Below, in pieces: positions 731-29,315 of a DNA stretch of 35,017 bases; the first letter of the stretch is position 1, and each line of letters begins with the position of its first letter. The translations under genes were made by a program, and so were the position numbers. The DNA comes from a bacterium. GTDB lineage: Bacteria; Oederibacteriota; Muellerivitia; Muellerivitales; Muellerivitaceae. The notes under the pieces are model-generated. The model ran no database searches. It worked only from the letters and a program-made list of their open reading frames with translations, and was not told the origin of the DNA. The stretch is taken from assembly GCA_035549195.1 (NCBI GenBank), contig DASZRK010000022.1, positions 1 through 35,017 of the forward strand, read 5' to 3'.

Positions 731-860
731 TCCCCGGGGCCCGGTCCCTTCGGTCACCTTTCCCTTTTTTGCCGCCACCTTTATCCAGAGGCTTGGCGGC
801 CCCCCTTCCTTCTTTCCTTGATTGTGATACATTTCTAAAAGCCCTGTTCCCGAGGTCCCC

Positions 861-3008: not shown

Positions 3009-3017
3009 GCGAAGGGA

Positions 3018-4037
3018 TCAGGGGAGTCCGACGGAACGGCGCCAGGCATCCAAGACCCGCGCATTGCCCAGGCTGTCCTCCCAGGACATGGCGGGGGACT
3101 GGAACAGGCCTTGGCGGATCGAGCGGGCCACCTCATCGGCTTCCACCGTGTAAAGGCCCTTTTGGCATCGCACCGGGATCCGGCGCGGCTTTTGGGCCCC
3201 TTGGGGCTGGTGGAGGAGGTAGGAAGTCCCGCCCTCCCATTTCGCGAACCAAGGGGAAGGCACCGTCAGGCTCCCCTTGGTCCCATCCACCCGGACCATG
3301 GACTCCCCCCGGTCGGCGCGGATGGCGCAGGACAATTCGGCGAGGATGTCCCCGGGGAATCGGAGGATGGCCGAAGCCATCTCGTCCACCCCGCTCTTTT
3401 CCCCCAGGATCCCGGTCCCCTTCAATTCCACCGGTTCGGCGAAGGCCTTGCCTTGGGCCGCCCCGGCCAGCAGACGCGCCATGGAGACCGGATAACAGCC
3501 CACGTCCAGGATGCCGCCTCCTCCCAATTTTTTATTGAACAACCGGTTCTTCAGGTCCAGCGGCGCATCGAAGCAGAAGGAGGCCTGGATGAAGCGGACC
3601 TTCCCGATGGCCCCGTCCCGGACGAGGCGCACCAATTCCCGGGTCTGGGGATGGCATCGGTACATGAAGGCTTCCATCAGGAAGCGGCGGTTTTTCCGGG
3701 CCGCCTGGACCATGCGCCGGGCGTCCGCGGCGCCCATGGCCAGCGGCTTCTCGCAGAGCACGTGCTTGCCCGCCCGAAGGGCCTCCAAGGTCCAGCGGAG
3801 ATGGAAGGGATGGGGCGGGGCGATATAGACGGCCTCCACCTGCGGGTCCTTCAGGAGCGAAGGGTAGTCCCCATAGGCCCGGGGGACACGGTGTTCCTTG
3901 GCGAAGACCCGGGCGGACCGAACGTCCCGGCTTCCCACCGCCGCCAGGCGGCCCGTGCGGGAACGCCGCACCGCATGGGCGAAAATGCCCGCGATGCGGC
4001 CGGTCGAGAGGATGCCCCAGCGGAGCGGCGCGCTCAT
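3018..4037 (-). CDS. Gfo/Idh/MocA-family NAD(P)-dependent oxidoreductase
   Basis: 339 residues. The N-terminal Rossmann segment reads GILSTGRIAG (residues 8-17). The family hallmark CEKPLA follows (95-100), and GGGILDVGCYPV (~173-184) is in the C-terminal alpha/beta domain, with D178 and Y182 near the usual substrate site. Family members oxidise or reduce sugars, cyclitols or dihydrodiols with NAD(P). The frame stays open much further upstream, but ATG at 4037 is chosen because it overlaps the TGA of the upstream gene (ATGA) and gives the usual family length. It is the last gene of a four-gene minus-strand run. The substrate cannot be told from sequence. Confidence 0.88.
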   Translation of the reverse strand: MSAPLRWGILSTGRIAGIFAHAVRRSRTGRLAAVGSRDVRSARVFAKEHRVPRAYGDYPSLLKDPQVEAVYIAPPHPFHLRWTLEALRAGKHVLCEKPLAMGAADARRMVQAARKNRRFLMEAFMYRCHPQTRELVRLVRDGAIGKVRFIQASFCFDAPLDLKNRLFNKKLGGGGILDVGCYPVSMARLLAGAAQGKAFAEPVELKGTGILGEKSGVDEMASAILRFPGDILAELSCAIRADRGESMVRVDGTKGSLTVPSPWFAKWEGGTSYLLHQPQGAQKPRRIPVRCQKGLYTVEADEVARSIRQGLFQSPAMSWEDSLGNARVLDAWRRSVGLP

Positions 4038-5254
4038 CGGACCACCGCGAACTTGACGGGCTTCAGGCGCCGGGGGCCCGACGCGTCGTCGATCTCCACC
4101 AGGTAGTAATAGACCCCGTAGGCCCATCCCCCGATGGAGAGGGAAAGGTCGTTCCCGCCGGTGGCCCCCGCCGCGGAAGCCTCCCCGATCTGGGCCCCCG
4201 CCGTATTCATCACGAAGACCTTCCAGCGCGTCGCGGGCTGGCAAAGCTGGAGATGGACCTTCAAGGAGCCGCCGTTGGCCGGGTTCGGGTAGGCGTAGCT
4301 CCCGTCGCAACCCGCGTCGGGCGGCGTCGGGGTGGGCGTGGGGGCCGGTCCGCCGGGGGTCGGGGTGGCGGTGGGCAGGGCGGAAAGGCCGCAGCCCGCC
4401 ATCAGGCTCACCGAACCCCCGTTGATCAGGCTCACATAGACCTGTCCCAGGCCGTTCACCGCCGCCCCCCAGATGCCCACGGCCGGGAAGGGGCATTGGA
4501 CCTTGACGCTGAAGTCGGAACTGAATTCGTCCAGGTACTCGGGAGCGCTGCCGTTGTTCCCCTCGACGATGTAGAGATTGCCCGCCGGATCGGACCGGAA
4601 GGCGGAGGGGTCGAGCAGGCCGGTGAGGACCGTGACGGGGGAAGGGTCGGGCGGGGAAAGGCCGAACTTCACCAACTGGCCGTTCAAGGTATCGGTCACG
4701 TAGAGCCAGTTGCCGATCTTTTGCAGTTCATTGGGGCTGTGGAGCTGTCCCCCGTAAGTGGCCGCGGCGGAGTAGACGGTGGTGGCTCCGTCGTATTGGA
4801 GGACCCGCCCATCGGAGGTGGAGAAAAAGACCGAGGAAACATCGGCCCAGACGCCCTGGGCCGTGACCCCGGCGGGCCCCAGGGAACCCAGGTAAGTGAA
4901 GGCGCTGTTGAATTTCTTGATGGGCGGGGAAGAGCCGATGTCCGCCACGTAAAGGTCCCCGGCGCCGTCCAAGGCCACGTCGATGGGCCCCAGGAAGGTC
5001 GTCCCGGAATTGGCGGTGGTGAGGATGGTCAGGGCGGCCTGGGTGTTGCTGTCGAAGACCTGGACCTGGTGGTTGTTGAAATCAGCCACGTAGAGCCTTT
5101 GGGCGGCCGGGTCCACCGCCAGGCCGGCGGGCGCCAGGAAGCCGGTCAATTGGGTGACGGCCACGCAACAGGGGCCGGGTGTCGGGGTGTCGGTGGCCTG
5201 GCCCCAAAGAGGGCCGGCCAGGAGGAGGCTGAGCGGGAATAGGATCCGTTTCAT
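4034..5254 (-). CDS. Secreted NHL-like beta-propeller protein with C-terminal sorting-type module
   Basis: 406 residues. A clear signal peptide (MKRILFPLSLLLAGPLWGQA) is followed by repeated blades (~30-290) with motifs such as PAGLAVDPAAQRLYVADF, GPIDVALDGAGDLYVAD and FRSDPAGNLYIVEG, typical of NHL/SMP-30-like propellers. A PTPTP linker (~293-313) precedes a C-terminal domain beginning YAYPNPANGG and ending VKFAVVR, the FlgD-like tail common on exported proteins. The product is predicted to be extracellular or periplasmic. It overlaps the oxidoreductase start by four bases and lies 46 bases after the acetyltransferase, so the genes are probably co-transcribed, although a shared pathway is not obvious. 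Confidence 0.85.
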   Translation of the reverse strand: MKRILFPLSLLLAGPLWGQATDTPTPGPCCVAVTQLTGFLAPAGLAVDPAAQRLYVADFNNHQVQVFDSNTQAALTILTTANSGTTFLGPIDVALDGAGDLYVADIGSSPPIKKFNSAFTYLGSLGPAGVTAQGVWADVSSVFFSTSDGRVLQYDGATTVYSAAATYGGQLHSPNELQKIGNWLYVTDTLNGQLVKFGLSPPDPSPVTVLTGLLDPSAFRSDPAGNLYIVEGNNGSAPEYLDEFSSDFSVKVQCPFPAVGIWGAAVNGLGQVYVSLINGGSVSLMAGCGLSALPTATPTPGGPAPTPTPTPPDAGCDGSYAYPNPANGGSLKVHLQLCQPATRWKVFVMNTAGAQIGEASAAGATGGNDLSLSIGGWAYGVYYYLVEIDDASGPRRLKPVKFAVVR

Positions 5255-5300
5255 TCCGGCCTATTTTCCCATCCCCACGACCCTCCCACAAGGAGGGGAT

Positions 5301-5801
5301 TCAGCGAAGGTCCAGCTCCATCCGGTGGTCATCCATGACGAACCCATCCCCGATCTCGGTCACGAGGGGGCCGGTGATGCGGAAGCCCATTTTTTGGTAA
5401 ATGGCCACCGAGGGGTTCCGTTTGTGGACCCGCAAGAAAATGCGGGTGATACCCTTTTCCCGGGCGCGGGCTTTGAGGAACCCAAGGGCCTGGGAGGCGT
5501 AGCCCTTCCCCCGGTCCTCCTTGCGGATGTAAAGCTTGCTGAGGTAAAGGGACCCTTCCAGGGCCTGGAGGGCCAGGTAACCGAGGGAATCCCCTTGGGG
5601 GTCCTGGAGAAGGTAGTAGGCGGTGCCGTGTTGGACCTGGTCCAGGATGGCGGCTGCCCCTTGGAGGCGGTCCAACATGTAGTCGACCTGGGTCTCGCCG
5701 ATCAGGGGGATGTAGTGTTCGGGCCAGATGGTCCGGGCCAGGGCCTCCACTTCCGCCGCTCCGGAGGGGTCCATCACGGGAAGGAAGCGGAGGGGCGTCA
5801 T
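5301..5801 (-). CDS. GNAT-family N-acetyltransferase
   Basis: 166 residues. Motif A reads YIRKEDRGKGYASQAL (~91-106), with the R-G-K-G-Y pyrophosphate loop for acetyl-CoA. Motif B reads NPSVAIYQKMGF (~129-140). The length fits a single GNAT domain. The protein transfers acetyl from acetyl-CoA to an amine; the acceptor (polyamine, protein N-terminus, antibiotic or other) cannot be inferred. It starts 12 bases after the desaturase stop and is probably in the same transcript. No strong Shine-Dalgarno is visible, which suggests translational coupling. Confidence 0.87.
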   Translation of the reverse strand: MTPLRFLPVMDPSGAAEVEALARTIWPEHYIPLIGETQVDYMLDRLQGAAAILDQVQHGTAYYLLQDPQGDSLGYLALQALEGSLYLSKLYIRKEDRGKGYASQALGFLKARAREKGITRIFLRVHKRNPSVAIYQKMGFRITGPLVTEIGDGFVMDDHRMELDLR

Positions 5802-5813
5802 GGCCGGGAGGCC

Positions 5814-6869
5814 TTACGGCACCCGCGCGGTGGAAAGAGAAGCGGACCGCTGGGCGAGCCAGGGACGGTAGTGCTTCTCCATGAACTGCTCCTTGAAATC
5901 GCGGTATTGGTCGACGGCCCCGATCAGGTGCAGGCCCTTGATGTAAAGCCACGCGTAATCCCATTGGCTGGGCAGGAAGCCCGCGCGGGCCCCGTTGGGA
6001 TAAAGGTGATGGTTGTTGTGCCATTCGCCGGTCACCAGACCTGGCCATTTTTGGTTGATGGAAAGGTCGGTCCGGTTGAAATCATCCCCTTCCTTGCGTT
6101 TGTCCTTGCCGCCGCCGTGCCCGTCATAGTTGAAGGTGCGCACCCCCACCGCCCAAAAAGCGGTCCAGCCGATCAGGGTCGCGAGCAAGGGCATGCCGCC
6201 CAGGAGGTAAAAGACCGTGAACCAGAAGGCCCAGTTGGAGGCGAAATCCAGGACGGTCCAGAAGGGGTGGGTCACCGAACCCCATTTTTGGTATTGGGCG
6301 TAGCTGTTCACGCGGACCCCCATGTGGGCGATCATGTTGGCGGTCTTGGCGTAATCCTCGGGGGAAAGGTCCCGGGCGATGGCCTGGTGGTTCACGTCGG
6401 CCAGGAAGCAGTAAAGCCAGCCCCCGTGGACGTTGTAAGGGTCGCCCGGTTTTTCCGACCGGAAATGATGCACGTGATGGGAGATCACATAGGCTTCCTC
6501 GGGGATGGTCTTGACCACCAGGCTCCGGGTGAAATAAAGCCAGAACTTGTGGCTGAAGGTGTAGGCGTTGTGGGAGCCGTAGCGGTGGAGGTAGATGGTC
6601 CCATGGGTCCCCAGCACCACCATGCTGTAGATGAAGCCGATCAGCAGGAGCTTCCAGGTGAAGTACTTGAACAGGAAAAGGAAAAAGAAGGGCGCGAAGA
6701 GGAGGATGAGAAACCAGCTGAAAAAGGGGAGCCAGGACTTGCGGGAGTTGAAGATGTTCAGCCGATGGAAGAATTCGGCGAAGATCTCTTTTTGGGTAGG
6801 TTTATAGAGCTTCTGATCGCGGGTGTAACCGTAAGAGGGCGGGTCTAGGACCCGGTCCAGGAATGCCAT
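5814..6869 (-). CDS. Membrane fatty-acid (acyl-CoA/acyl-lipid) desaturase
   Basis: Integral-membrane di-iron desaturase. All three histidine boxes are present: HRYGSH, HHVHH and HNNHH (residues 109-114, 145-149 and 298-302 counted from the upstream GTG). Hydrophobic spans lie between the boxes at ~60-105 and ~225-262. The enzyme inserts a double bond into acyl chains at the cytoplasmic membrane, affecting membrane fluidity. ATG at 6869 (351 aa) is preferred because the family usually begins close to the F-L-D-R-V-L-x-P-P-S-Y-G motif; an in-frame GTG at 6911 (365 aa) is the alternative. Neither has a strong Shine-Dalgarno. It is the first gene of the minus-strand run down to 3018. Confidence 0.9.
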   Translation of the reverse strand: MAFLDRVLDPPSYGYTRDQKLYKPTQKEIFAEFFHRLNIFNSRKSWLPFFSWFLILLFAPFFFLFLFKYFTWKLLLIGFIYSMVVLGTHGTIYLHRYGSHNAYTFSHKFWLYFTRSLVVKTIPEEAYVISHHVHHFRSEKPGDPYNVHGGWLYCFLADVNHQAIARDLSPEDYAKTANMIAHMGVRVNSYAQYQKWGSVTHPFWTVLDFASNWAFWFTVFYLLGGMPLLATLIGWTAFWAVGVRTFNYDGHGGGKDKRKEGDDFNRTDLSINQKWPGLVTGEWHNNHHLYPNGARAGFLPSQWDYAWLYIKGLHLIGAVDQYRDFKEQFMEKHYRPWLAQRSASLSTARVP

Positions 6870-18965: not shown

Positions 18966-19775
18966 CTAAAAATTCAGGTGCAACAACTTGAATTCGGCGA
19001 AAGGCATCTTCAAAAGTACCGCTCCCGTTCCCAGGTCGCAAAATTCCGTGATGCGCAGCTTGGTGTTGGTGAAACAGACCCGCTTTTCCTTGTTGGAGAC
19101 CCCCTCCAGTCGATAGGGACCCTTTTTGGACCAAATCGTCTTCCCTTGCTCGTTCACGATGAAATAGGCCTCTTGCCGGGGATCGGGAGAGTGTTCCCAT
19201 AGGACGATCCGTTGACCCTCATCCGTGATCGCCTGTGGAAGGCCGGGGGATCCAACGGGGATCTTTCGTTCGGAATGGGACGAGAGGTCGTGAAGGACGA
19301 AGGTCCTTGGGGCGTTGGCCCCACCGGGTGGGGGGCAGGCTTCTTCAACCAGGAACCGGCCATTGGCCGAAAGGACGGCGTGCATCCCGGAAGTCCTCAA
19401 TATTTCCCGACCGGTCCTCTCGTATACGAACAATCGATATTCCTCTTTTCTCCTGAAAATGAAGAAAGACCGTCCGGATCCTTTGGAGGCGCCGCCGGAG
19501 TCCTGCGCAAAACCGCGTTGGATCCCATGGGTGCGGAGAACTTTCTCCCCCTTTAAAAAAACGATCGTGGATCGGGGTTCCCCGTCGGGATAACTCGTCC
19601 TGACCTGGACGTGATAAGGTTCGGCCGTTGGTTGGGGGGAAGGGGAACTTTGTTTTTCGGTCCCGGAAGAGGAGCCGACCACGGGTGCGGCCAGCGAAAG
19701 GGCCAAGGAAAGGGCCTTAAAAGACGGCGGCCTCAGCCCCTTGCCGTTAAGGCTCGTACGGTTTTTGAGGGCCAT
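18966..19775 (-). CDS. Exported protein of unknown function, last gene of the metal locus
   Basis: 269 residues. A hydrophobic segment (~20-35) suggests a signal peptide or anchor. The rest is beta-rich, with motifs GRFLVEE, TFVLHDLSS, GQRIVLWEHS and AYFIVNEQGKTIWS that resemble blades of a WD/Kelch-like or Tol-type propeller, but I recognise no family. Its ATG (19775) lies 29 bases inside the preceding CxCxxC gene, so translation may be coupled; a later start is possible. It could be a passenger in the operon rather than a metal protein. Confidence 0.65.
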   Translation of the reverse strand: MALKNRTSLNGKGLRPPSFKALSLALSLAAPVVGSSSGTEKQSSPSPQPTAEPYHVQVRTSYPDGEPRSTIVFLKGEKVLRTHGIQRGFAQDSGGASKGSGRSFFIFRRKEEYRLFVYERTGREILRTSGMHAVLSANGRFLVEEACPPPGGANAPRTFVLHDLSSHSERKIPVGSPGLPQAITDEGQRIVLWEHSPDPRQEAYFIVNEQGKTIWSKKGPYRLEGVSNKEKRVCFTNTKLRITEFCDLGTGAVLLKMPFAEFKLLHLNF

Positions 19776-20049
19776 TCAGGGATTCCATCCGACGCTGACG
19801 GTAAGTCTGGCATTTGGCGCAGTTGCATCCGTTCTGGAAGAACCACCCGAATGTTTTGGGTTTTGGCTGGACGGTGGGTGTCGGGGAAGGCTTTTTCACG
19901 GCCGTTCCCTGGACGGTCTTTGTGGGCGACGGGGTGGGAGAAGGCGTTCGATCCGGCGCGGAAAAGACATGGCCCGCCGCGAAAAACAACGGGATGGATA
20001 AGGCGAAGACCAGGGTTTTGGAACTGAAATTACCCAAAGGGTCACTCAT
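19747..20049 (-). CDS. Small exported CxCxxC protein with PT-rich linker
   Basis: 100 residues. The hydrophobic N-terminus (TLVFALSIPLFFAAGHVFSA) looks like a signal peptide. A TPSPTPSPTK...KPSPTPTVQPKPK linker leads to a short C-terminal segment, GWFFQNGCNCAKCQTYRQRR, with three cysteines in C-x-C-x2-C. Three clustered cysteines suggest soft-metal binding or redox. The start overlaps the MerC-like stop by eight bases (ATGAGTGA). I do not recognise the family. Its position inside a metal-transport operon supports a metal-handling role, by inference. Confidence 0.65.
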   Translation of the reverse strand: MSDPLGNFSSKTLVFALSIPLFFAAGHVFSAPDRTPSPTPSPTKTVQGTAVKKPSPTPTVQPKPKTFGWFFQNGCNCAKCQTYRQRRMESLNGPQKPYEP

Positions 20050-20479
20050 GGGCCGTGATCCCTTTGGAAGGCCCGTGATGACAGGTCCTGCATTCGAGGC
20101 AAAGCCTCCGGTTCAAAAGGTGTCCCGCGGCCAGTCCCAGCGCCCCGGGGACGGCCAGCCATAAGCCCTGGGGTCCCATGATCCAAACCTTGCCGACGAC
20201 GATCATCCCGGTGCAGAAATACAGAAGCATCAAAAGGCGCTTTTTCCGGTGGAGATGGAACCCGGAACAAAAACTCACCGTGGCCAGCAACATGGAGCAT
20301 CCGATGAACAAAAGCTCGACCCGGCGGTCCACCAAGAACGCCATCCCGATCCAGGGCAGGGCCAGGATCAAGAAGGGGAGCGCGACGCAATGCACCGCGC
20401 AGGTCAATGACAAAAGGGCCCCGACTTGATCCAGCCGTGATCGGCTTAAGACTTCCGGTTTCTTTTCCATTCGATCCAT
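20042..20479 (-). CDS. MerC-like inner-membrane protein
   Basis: 145 residues with four hydrophobic segments. The first contains C-A-V-H-C-V-A-L-P-F, the vicinal Cys/His signature of MerC-domain proteins, and the C-terminus has CLECRTCHHG, another potential metal site. MerC of mercury operons carries metal across the membrane; chromosomal relatives are often found in zinc- or other metal-responsive clusters. Starts at 20479 and 20470 (ATG) are both possible; neither has a strong ribosome site. It lies 40 bases after the ZnuB-like permease and overlaps the next gene, supporting one operon. Confidence 0.8.
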   Translation of the reverse strand: MDRMEKKPEVLSRSRLDQVGALLSLTCAVHCVALPFLILALPWIGMAFLVDRRVELLFIGCSMLLATVSFCSGFHLHRKKRLLMLLYFCTGMIVVGKVWIMGPQGLWLAVPGALGLAAGHLLNRRLCLECRTCHHGPSKGITAHE

Positions 20480-20519
20480 TCCGTGGTTCTTTGGGCAACT
20501 TCGATCGTCAATAAACCCT

Positions 20520-21347
20520 TTACCGATCGGCGTTTTTCATCCGGGTCACGACCGAAATAAAAATCACCGACAAGCCGAAAACACAAACGATGGTCGCGCC
20601 CATCGGCCAATCCCGGTCATAGGACAGGACCGCGCTCACGCTCGAGACCAACAACCCGATCCCCCAAGCCCAGTAAAGGCGGCGGTTCCCCTTTATACCC
20701 AAAAGGGTGGCGCAGACCAACGGCATGATCAGAAAAGAAAAAACGGCCAATACGCCTGACACCTTCACGGATGAAGTCACGACCAGCCCGAACGACGAAT
20801 AGAACAAGAAATCCCAAAGCCTGACGGATAAACCCTTGCGCTTGGCCGCCCTTGTGTCCGTGGAACAAAGGGTGAGGTTCTTATGTCCGAAATAAAGGAA
20901 GATCCCGACCAGGCTGTAAAGGGTTCCCATGATGAAGATATCCTTCCAGGAGACCCACCCTAAGGCTTCGCCGTTCAAGGTCCCTTGCACATGCTCGGCC
21001 CCATGGGGGGCATTGGTCAATAAAAGAAGGGAGGTGGCTGTGGCCAGGGAAAAGGCGATGCCGATGAAGGCTTCCTGCAACACGGAATGATTCCTGTCCC
21101 ATAAAAAACTGAATAGGGCCGCTCCCAAAAGGGTGAACGCGAAGGACCAATAGTAGCCCGAGGGATCGTGGGGTTCGGCGCCCAAAAGAAAAGCGACGGA
21201 CTGACCCAAGGCCGCGATCTGGGCCAGGGCCAAGTCCACGAAAATAACGCCCCGGGCCAGCACATGCTGGCCCAAGGCGGGATGGATCAGCACCAACAGG
21301 AGGCACGCCAGGATCGGTAATCCCATTATGAGAATGAATTGATGCAT
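20520..21347 (-). CDS. ZnuB-like metal ABC transporter permease
   Basis: 275 residues, hydrophobic throughout with about eight membrane spans, of the ABC-3 (zinc/manganese) permease family. Typical features are GVIFVDLALAQIAALGQS near the N-terminus, HGAEHVQGTLNGE in the middle, and the VTSSVKVSGVLAVFSFLIMP segment that couples to the ATPase. It moves metal delivered by the binding protein encoded 14 bases upstream. No matching ATPase (ZnuC) gene is next to it, unlike the usual znuABC arrangement; the ATPase in this cluster belongs to the FtsX-type permease. Confidence 0.88.
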   Translation of the reverse strand: MHQFILIMGLPILACLLLVLIHPALGQHVLARGVIFVDLALAQIAALGQSVAFLLGAEPHDPSGYYWSFAFTLLGAALFSFLWDRNHSVLQEAFIGIAFSLATATSLLLLTNAPHGAEHVQGTLNGEALGWVSWKDIFIMGTLYSLVGIFLYFGHKNLTLCSTDTRAAKRKGLSVRLWDFLFYSSFGLVVTSSVKVSGVLAVFSFLIMPLVCATLLGIKGNRRLYWAWGIGLLVSSVSAVLSYDRDWPMGATIVCVFGLSVIFISVVTRMKNADR

Positions 21348-21361
21348 GGCGTCCTCGCTTT

Positions 21362-22267
21362 TTAGAGGTTCTTGGCCAACGCGGAGACAATGGCGTCGAA
21401 TTTGGAGAAAACATCCTTGGCCTCGGGCGTCGCATCGACCTCGAACGGGATCTCCAGGGCGACCCCCCCGGCCTTCTTGGCCAGGTCTTGGCTGGCGTCG
21501 GCATCATTATAGGTGGCATAGACCACCACCTTGGCGCCCAAGGACTTCATCCTTTCGGCCGTTTCCGCCAAATGCCTGGCGCTGGGAGGGATGCCGGGTT
21601 TGATCTCCACGGTCCCCGCCAGCTTCAGGTCGAAACGCTCGACGAAATAATCGAAGTTCCTGTGATAGCTCGCGACGTAGGAACCCCTGAAAGGTTTCAA
21701 CTTTTCCTTCCAACCCTGCAAGGCGGTCTCCATCCGCTTATCGAAGGCCACGGCGTTGGCTTGATAATCCGAGGCGTTGGCCGGGTCCAATTCCGCGAGG
21801 ACCTTGGCCAAATGGTCGGCCACGATCTCCAGGTTCTTGGGGTCCGTGTAATAGTGGGGGTTGCCCAGGGGATGGATGTCCCCCTCCGCCCGGCTGACGG
21901 TCCCCGTCGGTTTTTCCAACACCTCGATCCCTTCGGACGCATCCATAAAGCCCTTGGAACCGGGCTGGATCTTCGGGTTGCGGCTTCCGGGGATCACCAG
22001 GGGGATCCAGCCTCCGTCCAATTCAAGCCCCACCGAAATGAACAAATCGGCGTCCTGGACCTTTTTCATCAGGCTGGGTTTGGCCGGGACGAAGTGCGGG
22101 TCCTCGTACCCTTTGCATAGGCTAAAGGCCGTTACGTGTTTACCCCCGACGAACTGGGCCACCGAGGCCAGATCGGTCAAGGATGTGGCGACCTTCAACT
22201 CGGCCATGGCCGGAACGGCCGTGGCTAACATCAAAACTGCGAACAGCGATCGAATCCATGTCTTCAT
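21362..22267 (-). CDS. ZnuA-like periplasmic metal-binding protein
   Basis: 301 residues, ATG 22267 with AAGGAG. Signal peptide MKTWIRSLFAVLMLATAVPAMA. This is a cluster A-I (ZnuA/TroA) solute-binding protein: ELKVATSLTDLASVAQFVGG at the start, and candidate metal ligands H58 (EDPHFVPAKPS), H138 (GNPHYYTDP), H202 (ASYHRNFDYF) and an acidic residue in TYNDADAS (~254-257). There is no long His-rich loop between the first two ligands, so specificity (zinc versus manganese or iron) is not certain; the neighbours favour zinc. The longer upstream frame is rejected because it would start before the signal peptide. Confidence 0.9.
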   Translation of the reverse strand: MKTWIRSLFAVLMLATAVPAMAELKVATSLTDLASVAQFVGGKHVTAFSLCKGYEDPHFVPAKPSLMKKVQDADLFISVGLELDGGWIPLVIPGSRNPKIQPGSKGFMDASEGIEVLEKPTGTVSRAEGDIHPLGNPHYYTDPKNLEIVADHLAKVLAELDPANASDYQANAVAFDKRMETALQGWKEKLKPFRGSYVASYHRNFDYFVERFDLKLAGTVEIKPGIPPSARHLAETAERMKSLGAKVVVYATYNDADASQDLAKKAGGVALEIPFEVDATPEAKDVFSKFDAIVSALAKNL

Positions 22268-22316
22268 GCTCTTCTCCTTAGGTTTGATTCTTGATTTCCT
22301 GACCCTGCTTCGCCTT

Positions 22317-23405
22317 TTAATAAGAATGGGGCGGGTGGAACCCAATGGTGTAATTGAACTGGACCATGACCCGGTGGTCCCACGCCGTGCCGGAAGCGTC
22401 ATCGGCGTCCGCCTTGGCGATGCTGTACTCCGCCCGGATGGCCGTGAACTCCGAGGGGGTCCAGGTGATGTTGGCGGAACCCTTCTGCACATGTCCGGGA
22501 AGGGGGTCCCCCGCGCCGTCCACCAGGGTTTCCGTCAGGCTGTGGTAGGCCTCTTCCACGCGGATGCCCGTCCACCAGGATTGGGACCAGCGGTATTGCA
22601 AAAAGGCGTTCCAACCGTCGGTTTCCTGGTTGTAGATCCCGTCCCCAAAAGAATCCCGGCGGATATACTCCCCGGCCAGGATCCAACCCCTCTGGTTCGA
22701 TTGGCGCATGGGGATCTCGCGGAAGGTCAGGTCGACGCCAAAAGCGGCGTGGTGCAGGCCGTCGTCCCCGAGGCCCATGAGGGAGGACTCCCCTAATTCC
22801 ATCGTCAGGTCCTCGCCCAGGTCCCATTGGTTCTTCAAATGGGCCAGCCAGGGAATGTTCTCGTGCGCCGTGGAGGCGAAGTTGAGGCCTTCGGTCCCGC
22901 CCCCTTGATAGCCTCCCAGGGTCAATTCACAGAACCAGGGAAGCGGCGAAAGCCAGGAGGCTTCGATCCCCGTGCCGTTAAAACCTTCCTCGCCGATCGA
23001 ATTCTCCATGATGACCGGTGCCTGGATGAAGGGGTAAGCGTGGGTATGGAGCCGCCCATGTTTACCGAAGGCGACCTTGAACTTACCCACCTTCAATTGG
23101 ATGTTATCAATTTCGTTGTTGGTCGCGAAAACCTCCTCCGGTGTCACCTCATCGGGTGCGAAGACCAGATTGGCCGTCAAGGTCCAGTAGGGGTCCACGG
23201 TGGAGATCAAGCTGATCTCCGACTCCTGGAACTGGGGCCCATAGGGTTGGTCCAAGTCCGGGGCGGCTTGCACCAGGAACAAGGCGTTGAACCCAATGGC
23301 GGGATTGGCGAGGTTCGAGATGATGGAACGGGTCTGGGCATGGGCCTGGATCGCGCCCATCCCAAGGGCCAAACAACAGATGAATAAACGAATGCAAGAT
23401 TTCAT
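22317..23405 (-). CDS. Outer-membrane beta-barrel (porin-like) of the metal locus
   Basis: 362 residues with a strong AAGGAGGA ribosome site. Signal peptide MKSCIRLFICCLALGMGAIQAHA. The mature protein has alternating beta strands with aromatic girdles (WTLTANLVFA, WFCELTLGGYQGGG, GWNAFLQYRWSQSWWTGIRV) and ends in strands with an aromatic-rich C-terminus, as expected of an outer-membrane barrel. FGKHGRLHTHAYPF and GLHHAAFGV supply histidines. There is no TonB plug domain, so it is a channel rather than a classical TonB receptor. Its place directly before znuA-like suggests passage of metal or a metal complex across the outer membrane. Confidence 0.78.
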   Translation of the reverse strand: MKSCIRLFICCLALGMGAIQAHAQTRSIISNLANPAIGFNALFLVQAAPDLDQPYGPQFQESEISLISTVDPYWTLTANLVFAPDEVTPEEVFATNNEIDNIQLKVGKFKVAFGKHGRLHTHAYPFIQAPVIMENSIGEEGFNGTGIEASWLSPLPWFCELTLGGYQGGGTEGLNFASTAHENIPWLAHLKNQWDLGEDLTMELGESSLMGLGDDGLHHAAFGVDLTFREIPMRQSNQRGWILAGEYIRRDSFGDGIYNQETDGWNAFLQYRWSQSWWTGIRVEEAYHSLTETLVDGAGDPLPGHVQKGSANITWTPSEFTAIRAEYSIAKADADDASGTAWDHRVMVQFNYTIGFHPPHSY

Positions 23406-23444
23406 TCTTCCTCCTTTTTTTGCGGTCCCAGAGGACCGGTGGTA

Positions 23445-23744
23445 CTACGCTGAAGGACGCTTTCCCGGGGGATCCCTCCCTGGATTGAAAATGAGGACCG
23501 CGGATACAACCCCGGTCTCTTTAAAAATGATCGAACCCATCCAGTAAACGGGGAAGAGTTCGGGTTGGACCGCGGGCACGATCCCTTGGGAGCCCGAGTG
23601 GTTCCAATGACAGTAGGCGCAGTGACCGTCCTGGGTTCTACCGTGGCGGTGATGGTGGACAAAGCCCTCCACGCCGATGACCAAAAGGAGCAGGAAGGCC
23701 ATTGCGGCCAACAGGGCCTTCAAGGCGGTCTTATTCGGATCCAC
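23445..23744 (-). CDS. His-rich/CxYC small membrane protein, copy A
   Basis: 99 residues from GTG 23744. One N-terminal hydrophobic span is followed by VEGFVHHHRHG and GHCAYCHWNHS, a His cluster plus C-A-Y-C-H motif suited to metal binding on the outer face of the inner membrane. The frame also has an ATG at 23819, but that would overlap the upstream gene by 61 bases. The GTG start is preceded by GAGGGA, clears the upstream stop and aligns without gaps from residue 1 to the E-G-F-V-H motif of the paralogue at 27786-28079. It is perhaps a DUF2946-like protein; function unknown. Confidence 0.75.
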   Translation of the reverse strand: MDPNKTALKALLAAMAFLLLLVIGVEGFVHHHRHGRTQDGHCAYCHWNHSGSQGIVPAVQPELFPVYWMGSIIFKETGVVSAVLIFNPGRDPPGKRPSA

Positions 23745-23758
23745 TTGGGTCCCTCGGG

Positions 23759-24532
23759 TCAAAACCAGGACCTCCTTGGCACCTTCACCCGGTCCGAGCT
23801 CATCCGGTAAAGGCACCATCCGCCGTTCTCCTCGTCGAATTCACGCCCGATGTCCAGGGTCCCATGGACCGTGACGGGCACATCCATGATCCCCTCGATC
23901 TCGGACCCGGGGACCATCTTCACGTAGATCCATTGGTTGAGCTTGGGGGTGACGCCGTAACAACAGGTCATCCGGCTTTGGGCCAGGATGAAGGATGATA
24001 CCTTTTCCTTGTCCGTCGCCATGGGGATCATGAAACCGACCACCTCGACCTTTTGCCCGTTCAAGGTTCGGATGGGCGCCGGTATGTCGTAGGTCCGTTT
24101 CTTTTTGGACGCCGGCTTTTTTTCGAAGGGATCCCCGCGGTTGGTGTCGTCCTGGGAAAGGCTCGTTCCCTGGCTGACGTCGGTGATCTCGCAGGGAAAG
24201 GAAGCCAAGGCCTCGAACCCGACCCTGTAATGGTCGCCTTCCTGGGGCCAGGGGATCTTCCCGGCGGGGACCGGCGGTTTGGGACCGGGGGCGGCGTTCT
24301 TACCCGGGGTCTCCTCCCGAGCGCTCATGGTCTTCCACCATTGACCGAGGCTGGGGGTGGAAGCCGCCTTGGACAGCATGAAAGCCAGGAGAACGAACCA
24401 GGCCACGCTCAGGGCGATCATGGCCCAGAACTTCCAGTCCGTGGGGGGAATGCGCGATTCGTAGGTGATCCTGGCCTTTCTTCCGGCCCCGGCGATCTTG
24501 ACATAGGTTTTGATCCGGTTGGGGTGGGTCAT
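23759..24532 (-). CDS. DUF3299-like membrane-anchored protein (second copy)
   Basis: 257 residues. One membrane span (~36-54) follows a cytoplasmic N-terminus. The periplasmic part contains VVGFMIPMA (~165-172), SSFILAQSRMTCCYG (179-193), KLNQWIYVKM and PVTVHGTLDIG, the DUF3299 pattern with vicinal cysteines. DUF3299 proteins accompany zinc-uptake systems such as zrg of Vibrio cholerae and PA4063-PA4066 of Pseudomonas aeruginosa. It starts four bases after a related gene (24537-25160), so the locus carries a tandem divergent pair. It has an extra anchor and a Lys-rich insertion compared with its neighbour. Its molecular function is unknown. Confidence 0.8.
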   Translation of the reverse strand: MTHPNRIKTYVKIAGAGRKARITYESRIPPTDWKFWAMIALSVAWFVLLAFMLSKAASTPSLGQWWKTMSAREETPGKNAAPGPKPPVPAGKIPWPQEGDHYRVGFEALASFPCEITDVSQGTSLSQDDTNRGDPFEKKPASKKKRTYDIPAPIRTLNGQKVEVVGFMIPMATDKEKVSSFILAQSRMTCCYGVTPKLNQWIYVKMVPGSEIEGIMDVPVTVHGTLDIGREFDEENGGWCLYRMSSDRVKVPRRSWF

Positions 24533-24536
24533 GGGG

Positions 24537-25160
24537 TCACCATGGGACCTTGGGAATGGAGACCTTGCTGGAGACCATCCGGTAAAGGGTCCAGGCCTGG
24601 TTGTCCTTCTTTTGTTCCCCGACGTTCAGGACCCCGAAGACCGTCACCGGAAAATCCATCAGGATCTCCGCCTCCTTCCCCTTGGCCATTTGGACGAAGA
24701 TCCACTCGTTCATCTTGGGGGTGATGCCGTAACAACAGGTGGCCTGGCTCCTGGCCAGGATGAAGGAAGTCGCCTTGTCCCCGGCCTCATTGGCCTCGAC
24801 GGGGATCATGAATCCGGCGACGGCGATCTTGTCCCCATCCAGCCGCTTGACGAATTCCGGAACGGGGAATTTCTTCTTTTTCGCCCTCAGTTTGGGGTGG
24901 ATCTCCTCGTCCAGGTCCGGTGTGTCATAGGGAAAATGGGACAGGGTGTTCCAAGTGACCCAATCGTGTCCATCCACCTGGGGATAGACCGTCACCGGGG
25001 CGTCCTTCACGGCGCGGTCCTTCAGGACGGGGCAGGCGGTCGGGACCGGCGTCGGGGCCTTTTCCCCGGCGTTGGACCGCCCCCAAGCGAAAAGGGATGA
25101 CCCCGCCAAGAGCGCGGCCATCACCTTCCCGAACCGGGTCCGAAACCGGGAAGCGCCCAT
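24537..25160 (-). CDS. DUF3299-like exported protein (first copy)
   Basis: 207 residues from ATG 25160, five bases after the previous stop; the longer upstream frame would overlap that gene. A signal or anchor lies at ~10-27. The conserved core is VAGFMIPVE (114-122), TSFILARSQATCCYG (131-145), KMNEWIFVQM and PVTVFGVLNVG, matching the downstream paralogue position for position. The vicinal cysteine pair CC is the most striking shared feature and may be a metal or thiol site. It is encoded between the His-rich periplasmic protein and the second copy. Confidence 0.82.
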   Translation of the reverse strand: MGASRFRTRFGKVMAALLAGSSLFAWGRSNAGEKAPTPVPTACPVLKDRAVKDAPVTVYPQVDGHDWVTWNTLSHFPYDTPDLDEEIHPKLRAKKKKFPVPEFVKRLDGDKIAVAGFMIPVEANEAGDKATSFILARSQATCCYGITPKMNEWIFVQMAKGKEAEILMDFPVTVFGVLNVGEQKKDNQAWTLYRMVSSKVSIPKVPW

Positions 25161-25165
25161 GGCGG

Positions 25166-25651
25166 TCACCCTTCTTTTCCCGGCTTCTGGACGCCTTCGT
25201 TCCCCTCCGGGTACAGGAACCAAACGTCTTTGAATTCGGTCCCCTTGGTCTTGATGCGGAGGATCGTTCCCTCGAAGCGGGTCATCCCCTTCAATTTTTT
25301 CGAGGTGGCCCGGTATTGGGAGGTGTCGCCGACCGTTTCACCCGTCAAGGCGTTGGCGATGGGTTTTAACTTGAGGACCCAGCTCCCGCCCTTCTGCTTG
25401 ACCTTGATCTGCAGGGAGGGCTGGGAGATCCTCACGGGGTTCTCCGCCTCGCCGTCCAGGGAAAAGGCGTCCAGGCGGCCCGTGGCCGGGTCCAGCAACA
25501 GTTCCACATGGGCGAATTCCTCGCCCAACTCCACGAGGGTGCCGTGGTGGGGCGGGTGGTGCTCATGGGCCCGGACCCAAGAAGCCAGGGAAAGGGTCAA
25601 AAGCAGGGCGAACACCGAGCAAAGGGTCTTCAAACTGGTCGTGAATTTCAT
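25166..25651 (-). CDS. His-rich periplasmic metal-binding protein
   Basis: 161 residues with AAAGGAGA. A signal peptide (MKFTTSLKTL...SLASWVRA) is followed at the mature N-terminus by HEHHPPHHGTLVELG and EFAHVELLLDPATGRLDAF. The H-H-G-x-L-V-E-L-G / H-V-E-L arrangement resembles N-terminal metal-binding segments of CzcB-type and related periplasmic proteins. It probably captures zinc in the periplasm and hands it to the neighbouring FtsX-type ABC complex, the position held by ZrgA/PA4063 in related loci. Overall homology to those proteins is not obvious to me. Confidence 0.75.
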   Translation of the reverse strand: MKFTTSLKTLCSVFALLLTLSLASWVRAHEHHPPHHGTLVELGEEFAHVELLLDPATGRLDAFSLDGEAENPVRISQPSLQIKVKQKGGSWVLKLKPIANALTGETVGDTSQYRATSKKLKGMTRFEGTILRIKTKGTEFKDVWFLYPEGNEGVQKPGKEG

Positions 25652-25664
25652 TTTTGTTCTCCTT

Positions 25665-26939
25665 TCAAGAGAGGGGATCGAGGTTGCGGACGACGTCGGT
25701 GGAATAAGCCTTGAACGCCGGGATGAAACCGGACAAGGCCCCCAAGACGGTCATCCCGATGGGAACGGCGGCCAAGGCCGCGTGGAATTGGAAAACGTCC
25801 AGAACGACGCCCGTTTGCCGCCGGACCACGACGGCGGCCGCCGCGAAGATGCCGAGGTAGATGGCATATCCGGCCAGGGACCCCAGCCCCGCGATGAAGG
25901 AAGCCTCCAACAGGATCGAGGAAAAAACGGTGGACCGTTTTGCCCCCAGGGCCCGGAGGATCGCGAATTCCCTCCGCCGTTCGTTCAGGGTGTTGTAAAG
26001 GCTGGAAAGGATGGAGCCGGCGGCGACCAACATCACGAGGTAGGCCACCAGGGTGAGGACCTTGGAGACCCAGCCCATCTTGTCGAACAGCTCCGCCATG
26101 ACCTTTCCGATGGGCCAGGCCAGCGTGGCCACCTTGCCCTGGCGGTTGATGGTCTGGTCCATCATGAAACCCGCCTGGGGGTTGTAGAACTTCAACATGA
26201 CCGAGCTGACCTCCTTGTTCGCGTCGGGTATCTCCACCCCCGCCTTCGCCGTGTAATCCTTTCCCGTACCCCGGAGGACGTGCCCCTTCATCCGGTAAAC
26301 GCCGTCGATGGGGATCCAGACCACCCGGTCCGAGGGGGTGTTGGTGGGTTTCAGGACGCCCACCACGGTGTAGACCTCTTCGTGCTGCATGTTGGGGTCG
26401 AAGAAGAGGCCGTGATAAGGCTTGAAGGTGTCGCCGACCTTCAACCTTGTCTTTTGGGAGACGAAACTGCCGATGACGGCCTCCCGTTGGGTCGGGTCGA
26501 AGAACCGGCCGTCGGGCTGGAGCGTCAGGTGGCGGCCCTTCTGATATTCGAATTTGGTGAATATCTCATCGGTCGTCCCGACGATCCGGAAGCCCAGGTA
26601 GTTGTCCCCGACGGCGTAGGGGATGGCCAACTGCACCCGGGGATCATTCTTCACCGCCTCGTAAAGGGCCCAGGGGATGTTCCCGGGGGAGGTCTCCAAT
26701 TGAAAGACGGCGTTGAGGACCAATTGCAATTGGCTGCCCCTGGCCCCGAGGACGGCGTCGAACCCCACCGAGCCTCCCGTGAAAGCGCTCCGGGATTGCT
26801 GTTGGATGGAGAAGACCGCCATGGTCAGGCCGGTCGCCAGCCCGACCGAAAGGACGGTGATGGTGGTCGAGAGGGCGTGCTGGCGGAGATTGTGGCCGAC
26901 CAGGAACAACAGGCTTTTGATCTTTTGAAGGAGGTTCAT
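25665..26939 (-). CDS. MacB/FtsX-type ABC transporter permease
   Basis: 424 residues. One membrane span near the N-terminus (~24-45) is followed by a large periplasmic MacB_PCD-like domain (~46-300) and three C-terminal spans (~300-420) with the FtsX coupling segment NERRREFAILRALGAKRSTVF. Such type VII ABC proteins use ATP to move periplasmic domains rather than carry solutes through the membrane. The ATG overlaps the ATPase stop by four bases (ATGA), so the two form one complex. In zrg/PA4064-PA4065-like loci this pair is zinc-regulated; that is the basis for the functional assignment. Confidence 0.88.
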   Translation of the reverse strand: MNLLQKIKSLLFLVGHNLRQHALSTTITVLSVGLATGLTMAVFSIQQQSRSAFTGGSVGFDAVLGARGSQLQLVLNAVFQLETSPGNIPWALYEAVKNDPRVQLAIPYAVGDNYLGFRIVGTTDEIFTKFEYQKGRHLTLQPDGRFFDPTQREAVIGSFVSQKTRLKVGDTFKPYHGLFFDPNMQHEEVYTVVGVLKPTNTPSDRVVWIPIDGVYRMKGHVLRGTGKDYTAKAGVEIPDANKEVSSVMLKFYNPQAGFMMDQTINRQGKVATLAWPIGKVMAELFDKMGWVSKVLTLVAYLVMLVAAGSILSSLYNTLNERRREFAILRALGAKRSTVFSSILLEASFIAGLGSLAGYAIYLGIFAAAAVVVRRQTGVVLDVFQFHAALAAVPIGMTVLGALSGFIPAFKAYSTDVVRNLDPLS

Positions 26940-27631
26940 TTGCGGCTCCTTCCCCGGCCCGCCGCCGTGGGGATGCGGTTGATCCGGCCGAGGTTCTCCA
27001 CCCGGTCGAACTTGGCCAACACCTCCCGGTCATGACTGACCAGGAGGAGGGCGGCCCCGTTCTCCCGGCAGATCTTCCGGATGAGTTCCAAGGATTCCAT
27101 GGCCCGGACGGGGTCCAGGTGTCCCGTGGGCTCGTCCGCCAGCACCAATTTGGGATGGTTCGCCAAAGCCCTGGCCACGGCGACCCGTTGCTGTTGGCCC
27201 ACGGACATCTGCCGGGGGTAGTAATGGAGGCGGTTCTTCAGGCCCACGCGTTCCAAAAGGTCCGTGGCGTAGGCTTCATCCACCCCCCTCCCGAACATCA
27301 TCCCCAGCTTCACGTTCTCCAGGGCCGTATAACCCTGCAGGAGGTTGAATGTCTGGAAGATGTAGCCGAGCGTTTGGGCCCGCACCAGGTCCCTCTCCCC
27401 CTCGCTGAGGGGACCCAAAGGCTTCCCGGCGAGGGTGATGTCCCCCTCGTCCGGCTTCAGGATCCCGGCGATGAGGTTCAGGAAGGTGGTCTTTCCGGAC
27501 CCGCTTTCCCCGGCCAGGGCGGTCTGATCGCCCGCCCCTAGGCTGAAGTGATGCGTGTTGACGACGAGATGACGCTCGCCTTCCGGTGATAGGTAAGATT
27601 TTTTCAGGTTGTTGATCTCTAAAACTTTCAT
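26936..27631 (-). CDS. LolD/MacB-type ABC transporter ATP-binding protein
   Basis: 231 residues. Walker A is GESGSGKTT (41-49), the Q-loop is in YIFQTFNLL, the signature is MSVGQQQR (canonical LSGGQ is changed to MSVGQ), Walker B is LVLADEPTGHLD and the switch histidine is in LLVSHDRE. The start at 27631 fits the family N-terminus (MKVLEINNLKKSY); the frame extends ~110 codons upstream without similarity. GGGGGA lies before the ATG. It powers the FtsX-type permease encoded by the overlapping next gene. It is not a ZnuC: the coupling to FtsX and the HD-E-P-T-G type motifs are of the LolD class. Confidence 0.9.
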   Translation of the reverse strand: MKVLEINNLKKSYLSPEGERHLVVNTHHFSLGAGDQTALAGESGSGKTTFLNLIAGILKPDEGDITLAGKPLGPLSEGERDLVRAQTLGYIFQTFNLLQGYTALENVKLGMMFGRGVDEAYATDLLERVGLKNRLHYYPRQMSVGQQQRVAVARALANHPKLVLADEPTGHLDPVRAMESLELIRKICRENGAALLLVSHDREVLAKFDRVENLGRINRIPTAAGRGRSRK

Positions 27632-27785
27632 GATTCCCCCAAGCGTTAATGGAATTGGATGAGCCGAAGATCCGGAAAGGGCGCAGTAGAGCCTTGTGCG
27701 GGAAACGAAAACCGGGGATGGAAATTCGGGAAAGGGACGCGGAGAACGCGCCCAGGTTCCCTGGTTTATTTTCCCGCCGACTGGA

Positions 27786-28079
27786 TCAGGAAAGGACGGC
27801 TGGGGGGGAACGTCCTGAATGGACGGAGAACCGGATCGAATGGAAGACCTGTTTCGGTGTAGGGGCCACCAGGAACAACGTGAAGAGGGGGATGAGCCCA
27901 AGCGGGGCGGCGGATACCTTCGATTGGGAGATGTTCTTGTGGAAACTGCAGTAGGAACAATCACTATCTTCTTTTTGGCTGTGGTGATGATGATGGACGA
28001 ACCCTTCCGCCGACACCATCAGGGCGAAGAACATCACGAGGGACAGAGAAAGGGTCTTCAGCCAATATTTGGAACGCAT
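27786..28079 (-). CDS. His-rich/CxYC small membrane protein, copy B (first gene of metal locus)
   Basis: 97 residues from ATG 28079 with GGGGGA before it (a GTG three bases earlier is possible). One hydrophobic span (~8-24) leads into AEGFVHHHHHSQKEDSDCSYCSFHK: five histidines plus C-S-Y-C. It is paralogous to 23445-23744, with the same length and the same motif order. It is the first gene after a promoter with an operator-like inverted repeat, which fits a metal-binding protein made under metal limitation or stress. The 154 bases between its stop and the ATPase gene hold nothing I recognise. Confidence 0.75.
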   Translation of the reverse strand: MRSKYWLKTLSLSLVMFFALMVSAEGFVHHHHHSQKEDSDCSYCSFHKNISQSKVSAAPLGLIPLFTLFLVAPTPKQVFHSIRFSVHSGRSPPAVLS

Positions 28080-28109: not shown

Positions 28110-28139
28110 ATGATGACATTCCCCCTAAATGGATGTCAA
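28110..28139 (-). promoter_or_regulatory. Promoter of the metal locus with overlapping inverted repeat
   Basis: On the minus strand a perfect -35 TTGACA (28139-28134), an 18-base spacer and a -10-like CATCAT (28115-28110) precede the first gene, with a predicted start near 28103. An inverted repeat TGACAT-N13-ATGTCA (28138-28114) covers the -35 and abuts the -10. This is the classic geometry of a repressor operator. A Zur/Fur-type or other metal regulator is inferred; no regulator gene is in the window. Confidence 0.55.
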
Positions 28140-29196: not shown

Positions 29197-29234
29197 AAAA
29201 AAAGGCCACCCGCCTGAAGGCGGATGGCCTTTTA
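29197..29234 (-). terminator. Intrinsic terminator after tRNA-Asn
   Basis: On the minus strand AAAAGGCCATCCGCC pairs with GGCGGGTGGCCTTTT around TTCA, with one mismatch, followed by a run of T. It starts seven bases after the tRNA CCA end. Confidence 0.85.
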
Positions 29235-29240
29235 TTTAAA

Positions 29241-29315
29241 TGGCTCCCCGGGTTGGACTCGAACCAACAACCCTGCGATTAACAGTCGCATGCTCCACCA
29301 TTGAGCTACCGGGGA
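29241..29315 (-). tRNA. tRNA-Asn: tRNA-Asn (anticodon GTT)
   Basis: This 75-base gene folds as a complete cloverleaf. The acceptor stem is TCCCCGG/CCGGGGA, the D-arm has GCTC-AATGGT-GGAGC, the anticodon stem is TGCGA/TCGCA with loop CTGTTAA (anticodon GTT), and the T-arm has GTTGG-TTCGAGT-CCAAC. The 3' end encodes GCCA, so CCA is in the gene. It is flanked by its own promoter and terminator. Confidence 0.97.

Follow-up and report, generated by a model that had tools for sequence, protein, structure and literature searches.

A contig of 35,017 nucleotides (nt) from the bacterial phylum Oederibacteriota (DASZRK010000022.1, hereafter the window) carries thirteen closely packed genes, apparently for metal uptake, headed by a small open reading frame (ORF); which metal does this operon serve, and what is the small ORF for? 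We favour, with moderate confidence, an operon for metal scarcity, most likely of zinc, that is tuned by a leader peptide resembling CruR of Bordetella pertussis and CutF of Rhodobacter capsulatus. The window is one whole contig of a 3.2-Mb genome (G000) that is 98% complete. The ORFs, named g1 to g13, run along the minus strand from 28079 to 18966, and all of them are present and packed as a preliminary description of the sequence had claimed. With the start codons picked in this analysis, the successive gaps from g1 to g13 measure 154, −4, 13, 5, 4, 14, 39, 49, 14, 40, −8 and −29 nt, of which the first is the spacer between g1 and the ATPase gene g2. Directly upstream of g1 lies a sigma-70-like promoter, TTGACA-18-CATCAT (28110..28139, minus strand), a weak site alone, as the window holds two such sites against 2.6 in shuffled sequences; most orthologous leaders are preceded by similar TTGACA...TAnnnT sites. 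No riboswitch was matched in Rfam, and no palindrome shared as a Zur box was found, the dyads upstream varying from locus to locus.

The product of g1 (27786..28079, minus strand) contains a run of five histidines, a CSYC motif and, 45 residues farther on, an RSPP motif that is followed by four residues and the stop codon. A second ORF of this kind, g7 (23445..23744, minus strand), sits inside the operon without a promoter of its own and possesses HHH, CAYC, a 44-residue interval, RDPP and a longer tail. Both look like DUF2946-like leaders of the CruR/CutF type; thus the His/CxYC proteins, initially described as new and unrecognised metal-binding components, are probably regulatory leaders. 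Alignment of 13 leaders revealed that two histidines, both cysteines and both prolines are invariant, that 44–46 residues separate CxxC from RxPP, and that usually three to four residues follow RxPP. The remaining leader sequence diverges, in contrast to the proline motif and its conserved spacing. Pfam matched DUF2946 in 9 of the 13, with a best E-value of 2.1e-5, and the strict leader pattern was absent outside the leaders in a six-frame reading of 251 kb. Compared with their orthologues in the genome G001, g1 (58% identity, at the head of the G001 operon) and g7 (48%, before a TonB receptor) have saturated synonymous sites and a nonsynonymous proportion of 0.27–0.35, which marks both as real genes.

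Besides g1 and g7, most leaders end in RAPP or RSPP. In ApdA/ApdP, RSPP and RDPP each permit partial arrest, whereas the arginine was irreplaceable in the arrest peptides tested (PMC12992588); the members that carry KSPP, LAPP or HAPP may therefore not arrest. Two candidate roles for g7 were considered. That it is a dead leader was not concluded, because RDPP is arrest-permissive, and that it is the barrel module's own leader was rejected, because its closest relative is the TonB leader of G001.

A search with the leader profile gave 27 matches in 21 of the 44 genomes of the phylum. Twenty-two leaders precede import modules, namely barrel-ZnuA(-ZnuB) in 12 cases, a TonB receptor in five and LolD-FtsX in five, as counted from our own reading of the ORFs with Pfam checks for some. 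Like g1, most of them are the first gene of their operon. Elsewhere, a leader ending in RAPP (G019 contig 77, L079) stands before an M23/LysM peptidase gene and an Fe/Mn superoxide dismutase-like gene, no more than an association, which recalls the Zur-controlled endopeptidase of Vibrio (PMC6381278). In three genomes of one genus, leader-like ORFs ending in QAPPLS (L085, L086 and L087) precede a small alanine/proline-rich lipoprotein-like gene.

The leader ends appear to be tied to the translation start of the next gene: for many leaders, predicted pairing joins the following Shine-Dalgarno sequence to codons in the arrest motif or directly behind it. In the 154-nt spacer (27632..27785, minus strand) lies the g2 Shine-Dalgarno sequence GGGGGAA (27640–27634), which both the minimum free energy and the centroid structure predict to pair with the R-S-P codons of g1 (27811–27804). 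In the barrel operons of the family, the leader's final codons, ATC CTC CTG TAA, are predicted to pair with CACAGGAGGA, the barrel Shine-Dalgarno sequence, and in G025 and G037 the proline codons CCT CCG themselves are predicted to do so. The spacers fall into two classes, of 35–50 nt before a barrel and of about 100–215 nt before LolD or TonB. The z-scores of four barrel hairpins lie between −2.2 and −4.5, and a hairpin of another family scores −3.8; the hairpin predicted after g7 is weak. The family hairpin shows compensatory changes, and its covariation score, computed on an alignment of five sequences, which is few, was reached by 0 of 500 shuffles and by none of the slid versions. Matched pairs of leader end and Shine-Dalgarno sequence were more complementary than permuted ones (P = 0.0004, n = 19; P = 0.0005 for 14 less-related representatives) in a test devised after the hairpin had been noticed; like the other RNA controls, it treated related loci, which are not independent, as partly so. 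Predicted accessibility of the Shine-Dalgarno sequence under a ribosome mask, with mononucleotide shuffles as control, fits some leaders and not all.

From these features we infer a switch in which arrest opens translation and which is on at low metal, combining CruR-like logic with a CutF-like RNA architecture. The operon would be transcribed from the promoter before g1. As g1 is translated, a membrane or export segment would emerge, followed by the putative HxH/CxxC metal site. When metal is scarce, the ribosome would arrest at the C-terminal RSPP, as the motif suggests; occupying codons that are predicted to pair with the g2 Shine-Dalgarno sequence, it would free that sequence and allow expression of the import genes. 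Binding of metal to the nascent peptide would relieve the arrest, the ribosome would depart and the pairing would close. Termination by Rho within the 154-nt spacer might contribute, as for CruR; rut-like (Rho utilization-like) windows with a C>G bubble in this spacer rank in the top 1% of the operon, and similar ones occur elsewhere, so they are not decisive. The metal itself would presumably enter through the outer-membrane barrel and be handed by g4, the DUF3299 pair and FtsX/LolD to ZnuA and ZnuB, a route suggested by the protein families.

A series of observations weighs against this reading, beginning with the post hoc choice of the permutation test. The g1 peptide ends in RSPP, not RAPP, and scores 19.4 bits against DUF2946, below the Pfam cut-off of 23.7. 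The whole g1–g2 fold is no more stable than its shuffles (z = −0.62), and for several leaders with long spacers little release of the Shine-Dalgarno sequence is predicted. Copper is the metal sensed by the DUF2946 leaders characterised to date. No gene could be identified as Zur: among three Fur-family genes, the one adjacent to the TonB genes, the sole one classified, scores as PerR/Fur, not Zur. Finally, no ZnuC is recognisable in the near-complete genomes G000, G001, G004 and G006: the phylum's own ZnuC profile, which gives 346 and 334 bits in two contributing genomes, reaches at most 158–179 bits in these four, where the best-scoring ATPase (L032, L094, L095 and L096; contig 17 in G000) is FecE-like and encoded next to a FecCD permease. 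Each of the four has one ABC-3 permease, and the absence of ZnuC raises the question of which ATPase drives ZnuB.

Descriptions of zinc uptake in bacteria centre on control by repressors (Zur, AdcR). If the switch works as proposed, a zinc-type nascent-peptide switch ahead of 22 import modules within a single phylum would represent a second control principle; zrgD of Vibrio and other small genes at operon heads would then become leader candidates too. A phylum-wide extension is more tentative, and we rate it somewhat below even odds: that these leaders sense zinc on the ribosome, and that their arrest-motif codons or the codons directly behind them double as anti-Shine-Dalgarno sequences, so that arrest would open translation of outer-membrane and ABC zinc importers. 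Such leaders would be the zinc-sensing equivalent of CruR, though with another RNA output. A search of the open-access literature, with subscription journals outside its scope, returned no match joining arrest peptide, zinc and RAPP.

The genes behind g1 form an FtsX/DUF3299 arm and a barrel-ZnuA-ZnuB arm. In the first arm (all on the minus strand), g2 (26936..27631) encodes a LolD/MacB-type ABC ATPase (PF00005, 3e-32), for which the nearest NCBIfam models are LolD and DevA, with scores below their cut-offs. The g3 product (25665..26939) is an FtsX-family permease with a MacB periplasmic core domain (FtsX+MacB_PCD in Pfam) and is 81% identical to its G001 counterpart. The next gene, g4 (25166..25651), encodes a small exported protein with the histidine-containing stretch HEHHPPHHG that forms a family of its own and is kept after FtsX in G001, G002, G007, G031, G024 and G027. 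It was tried as a homologue of ZrgA/DUF2796 and rejected, with an hhalign probability of 0.3; Pfam matched DUF2796 to no protein of the operon. Two DUF3299 genes follow, both found by Pfam: g5 (24537..25160), a TCCYG variant, and g6 (23759..24532), with an N-terminal membrane segment. The DUF3299 profile matches PDB 4HSP, the structure of PA4066 (PMC8561739), with an E-value of 1.2e-10.

What this first arm does is the point at which a rival explanation survives best. It might stand outside import and, in the manner of MacB, export a metallophore or metal complex, which we regard as doubtful yet serious. The MacB core domain of g3 agrees with it, and PA4064/4065 of Pseudomonas, modelled and reported as a MacB-type exporter, affects pyochelin-cobalt export (PMC11481552). 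The operon, however, has no gene for MacA or TolC, the arm is linked to ZnuAB or TonB uptake modules, and Vibrio cholerae without znuA requires zrgA to grow at low zinc (PMC9820375). The FtsX-type ABC system, earlier suggested to serve uptake, has its Zrg-like match; the arm may itself import nothing.

In the second arm (likewise on the minus strand), g8 (22317..23405) encodes an outer-membrane β-barrel related to Vibrio Omr, with an invariant HxH and a C-terminal histidine. Its BBP2 match is weak (E = 0.0011), and its relatives also back the barrel first seen in the preliminary description. Single-sequence structure models of g4 and g8 reached a predicted local distance difference test (pLDDT) of 43 and 31, with no usable fold. 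The g9 protein (21362..22267) is a ZnuA-like cluster A-I binding protein (PF01297, 2e-46) that conserves three histidine ligands of ZnuA, and its nearest solved structure is the zinc binding protein 2ov1. The ZnuB-like ABC-3 permease g10 (20520..21347) is the only one found in G000. Downstream are g11 (20042..20479), a MerC-family membrane protein (PF03203, 8e-18; 64% identity to the G001 copy), g12 (19747..20049), a small exported protein with CNCAKC that has an orthologue in G001 and no family match, and g13 (18966..19775), an exported protein without a family match that is linked to the DUF3299 module also in G001, G002 and G007. Pfam thus bears out the ABC ATPase, FtsX, DUF3299, ZnuA, ABC-3 and MerC families named at the outset, with DUF3299 represented twice; of the two ABC systems proposed, the FtsX-type one is present, whereas the ZnuAB arm lacks ZnuC.

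The idea that the locus is a metal locus, zinc most likely, joining these two arms held up. Metal uptake is its most likely function, and zinc is the best-supported metal because both modules have counterparts in Vibrio that respond to zinc limitation: in Vibrio parahaemolyticus, zrg rises 76–206 fold and omr-znuAII-znuBII rises 283–1034 fold (PMC9817125). The three histidine ligands kept in the ZnuA-like protein and a ZIP transporter gene adjoining one leader were counted toward zinc as well. Copper is the obvious competitor, with the leaders and operon serving copper import for a heme-copper oxidase; we consider this unlikely. In its favour, a link to copper is known for CruR and for the majority of CutF-like leaders (PMC9426467, PMC9973294), copper is imported by the TonB receptors that lie with ExbBD/TonB behind cruR (PMC12914433), and ORFs on another G000 contig (G000:C2, L039) resemble Sco and heme A/O synthesis proteins, as recognised by eye. 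It fits poorly with the two zinc-limitation matches just given (PMC9817125), with the TonB receptor, to which NCBIfam gave no copper-receptor model, and with ZnuA/ABC-3 proteins, known for zinc, manganese and iron (PMC9820375).

Less probable still is that g1 and g7 simply encode small metal-binding proteins of the secreted or membrane kind, with control of the operon solely by a Fur-family repressor. They do carry His/Cys clusters, and CzcI-like relatives without the proline motif exist (PMC9973294). A proline motif and spacing conserved amid divergence, the head position and the specific complementarity to the next Shine-Dalgarno sequence argue for regulatory leaders instead; moreover, no accumulation of the CruR or CutF protein was detected (PMC9426467, PMC9973294).

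Comparison with relatives revealed three modules. Module 1 (leader, LolD-like ATPase, FtsX, g4 and DUF3299) has the same order in G001 and G031 and a more divergent form in G024 and G027; its core also occurs on a cut-off contig of G007 and in G002, where TonB genes precede it. Module 2 (leader, barrel, ZnuA and ZnuB) is a stand-alone locus in G001, G003, G004 and G006 and is also found in G025, G037, G043 and G040, with partial or partly read copies in G034, G009 and G017; none of the copies found in relatives has an adjoining ZnuC. At one such locus (L080 in G025, 857–6285), a ZIP transporter gene stands directly before the leader, and ZnuB is followed by genes for DUF1007 and NicO. Module 3 (leader, TonB receptor, ExbB, ExbD and TonB) lies on contig 29 of G000, where one stretch (G000:C29, L049, 3039–10554) holds Fur-family and MerC-like genes before it and a 244-residue ORF between TonB receptor and ExbB.

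In G001, module 3 fills the slot that module 2 holds in the window, between the leader g7 and MerC. The window operon is, on this comparative evidence, a lineage-specific reshuffling of conserved parts, because module 3 holds the same slot in G001 and the flanking leaders are orthologous; the barrel-ZnuA-ZnuB genes would have been placed in the slot of the TonB-ExbBD module of the sister genome. The linkage expected in relatives is therefore conserved for each module and not for the fusion of modules 1 and 2, which is seen only in G000, with barrel-ZnuA-ZnuB separate in four genomes of the family. A misassembled contig, suggested by the fusion's occurrence in one assembly only, is very improbable given the tight gene spacing and ribosome sites across the junction and the presence in G001 of both g7 and the MerC/g12/g13 block that flank the swapped module. 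Downstream of the operon lie convergent plus-strand GH5 and NHL-repeat genes; on its other side are a strong terminator-like hairpin (29200–29233) following tRNA-Asn (29241–29315), the tRNA being the sole Rfam match, and, beyond them, plus-strand NfeD and SPFH genes.

Outside the phylum, a DUF3299 profile search of genome contigs found only one planctomycete locus, and a DUF3299 search of plasmids gave no match; a Phaeobacter plasmid carries the order Fur, DUF2796, ATPase, FtsX and DUF3299. Vibrio zrgDACBE and Pseudomonas PA4063–PA4066 share with the window a separate LolD-like ATPase, an FtsX/MacB-like permease and DUF3299; they differ in that the window has g4 in place of the DUF2796 protein, two DUF3299 genes and a DUF2946-like leader. 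The Vibrio operon omr-znuAII-znuBII (VP_RS21430–21420) likewise has the order barrel-ZnuA-ZnuB without ZnuC, and its barrel has an HxH and a histidine-containing end; in Vibrio, however, it is separate from zrg, and ZnuC is encoded elsewhere. The same gene order is present in V. campbellii and Sulfurovum plasmid records. Unlike the window, the V. campbellii locus has no leader of at least 70 residues in 1.1 kb upstream. On the Sulfurovum mangrovi plasmid (LN246_RS13125–13140), a small ORF of 118 residues (L101, 2343–2699) with HHH and CQVC, ending in HAPPYTFS, precedes barrel-ZnuA-ZnuB; it differs in that its proline motif lies about 69 residues from CxxC and has histidine in place of arginine.

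Among regulators, CruR (bp2923) is the closest parallel to g1. It has a CxxC motif, a 45-residue spacing (within 1–2 residues in its family) and RAPP three residues from the end, and it heads an import operon, followed by a 162-nt spacer (PMC9426467), compared to 154 nt here; it arrests ribosomes in vitro (PMC12992588). By contrast, g1 has a conserved HxH cluster, RSPP for RAPP, a predicted pairing between arrest codons and Shine-Dalgarno sequence, and an operon of zinc type. CutF is also an exported leader whose end lies beside a stem-loop that hides the Shine-Dalgarno sequence of the next gene; in the presence of copper it switches on a copper oxidase, whereas the import operon described here would be expected to be on without metal.

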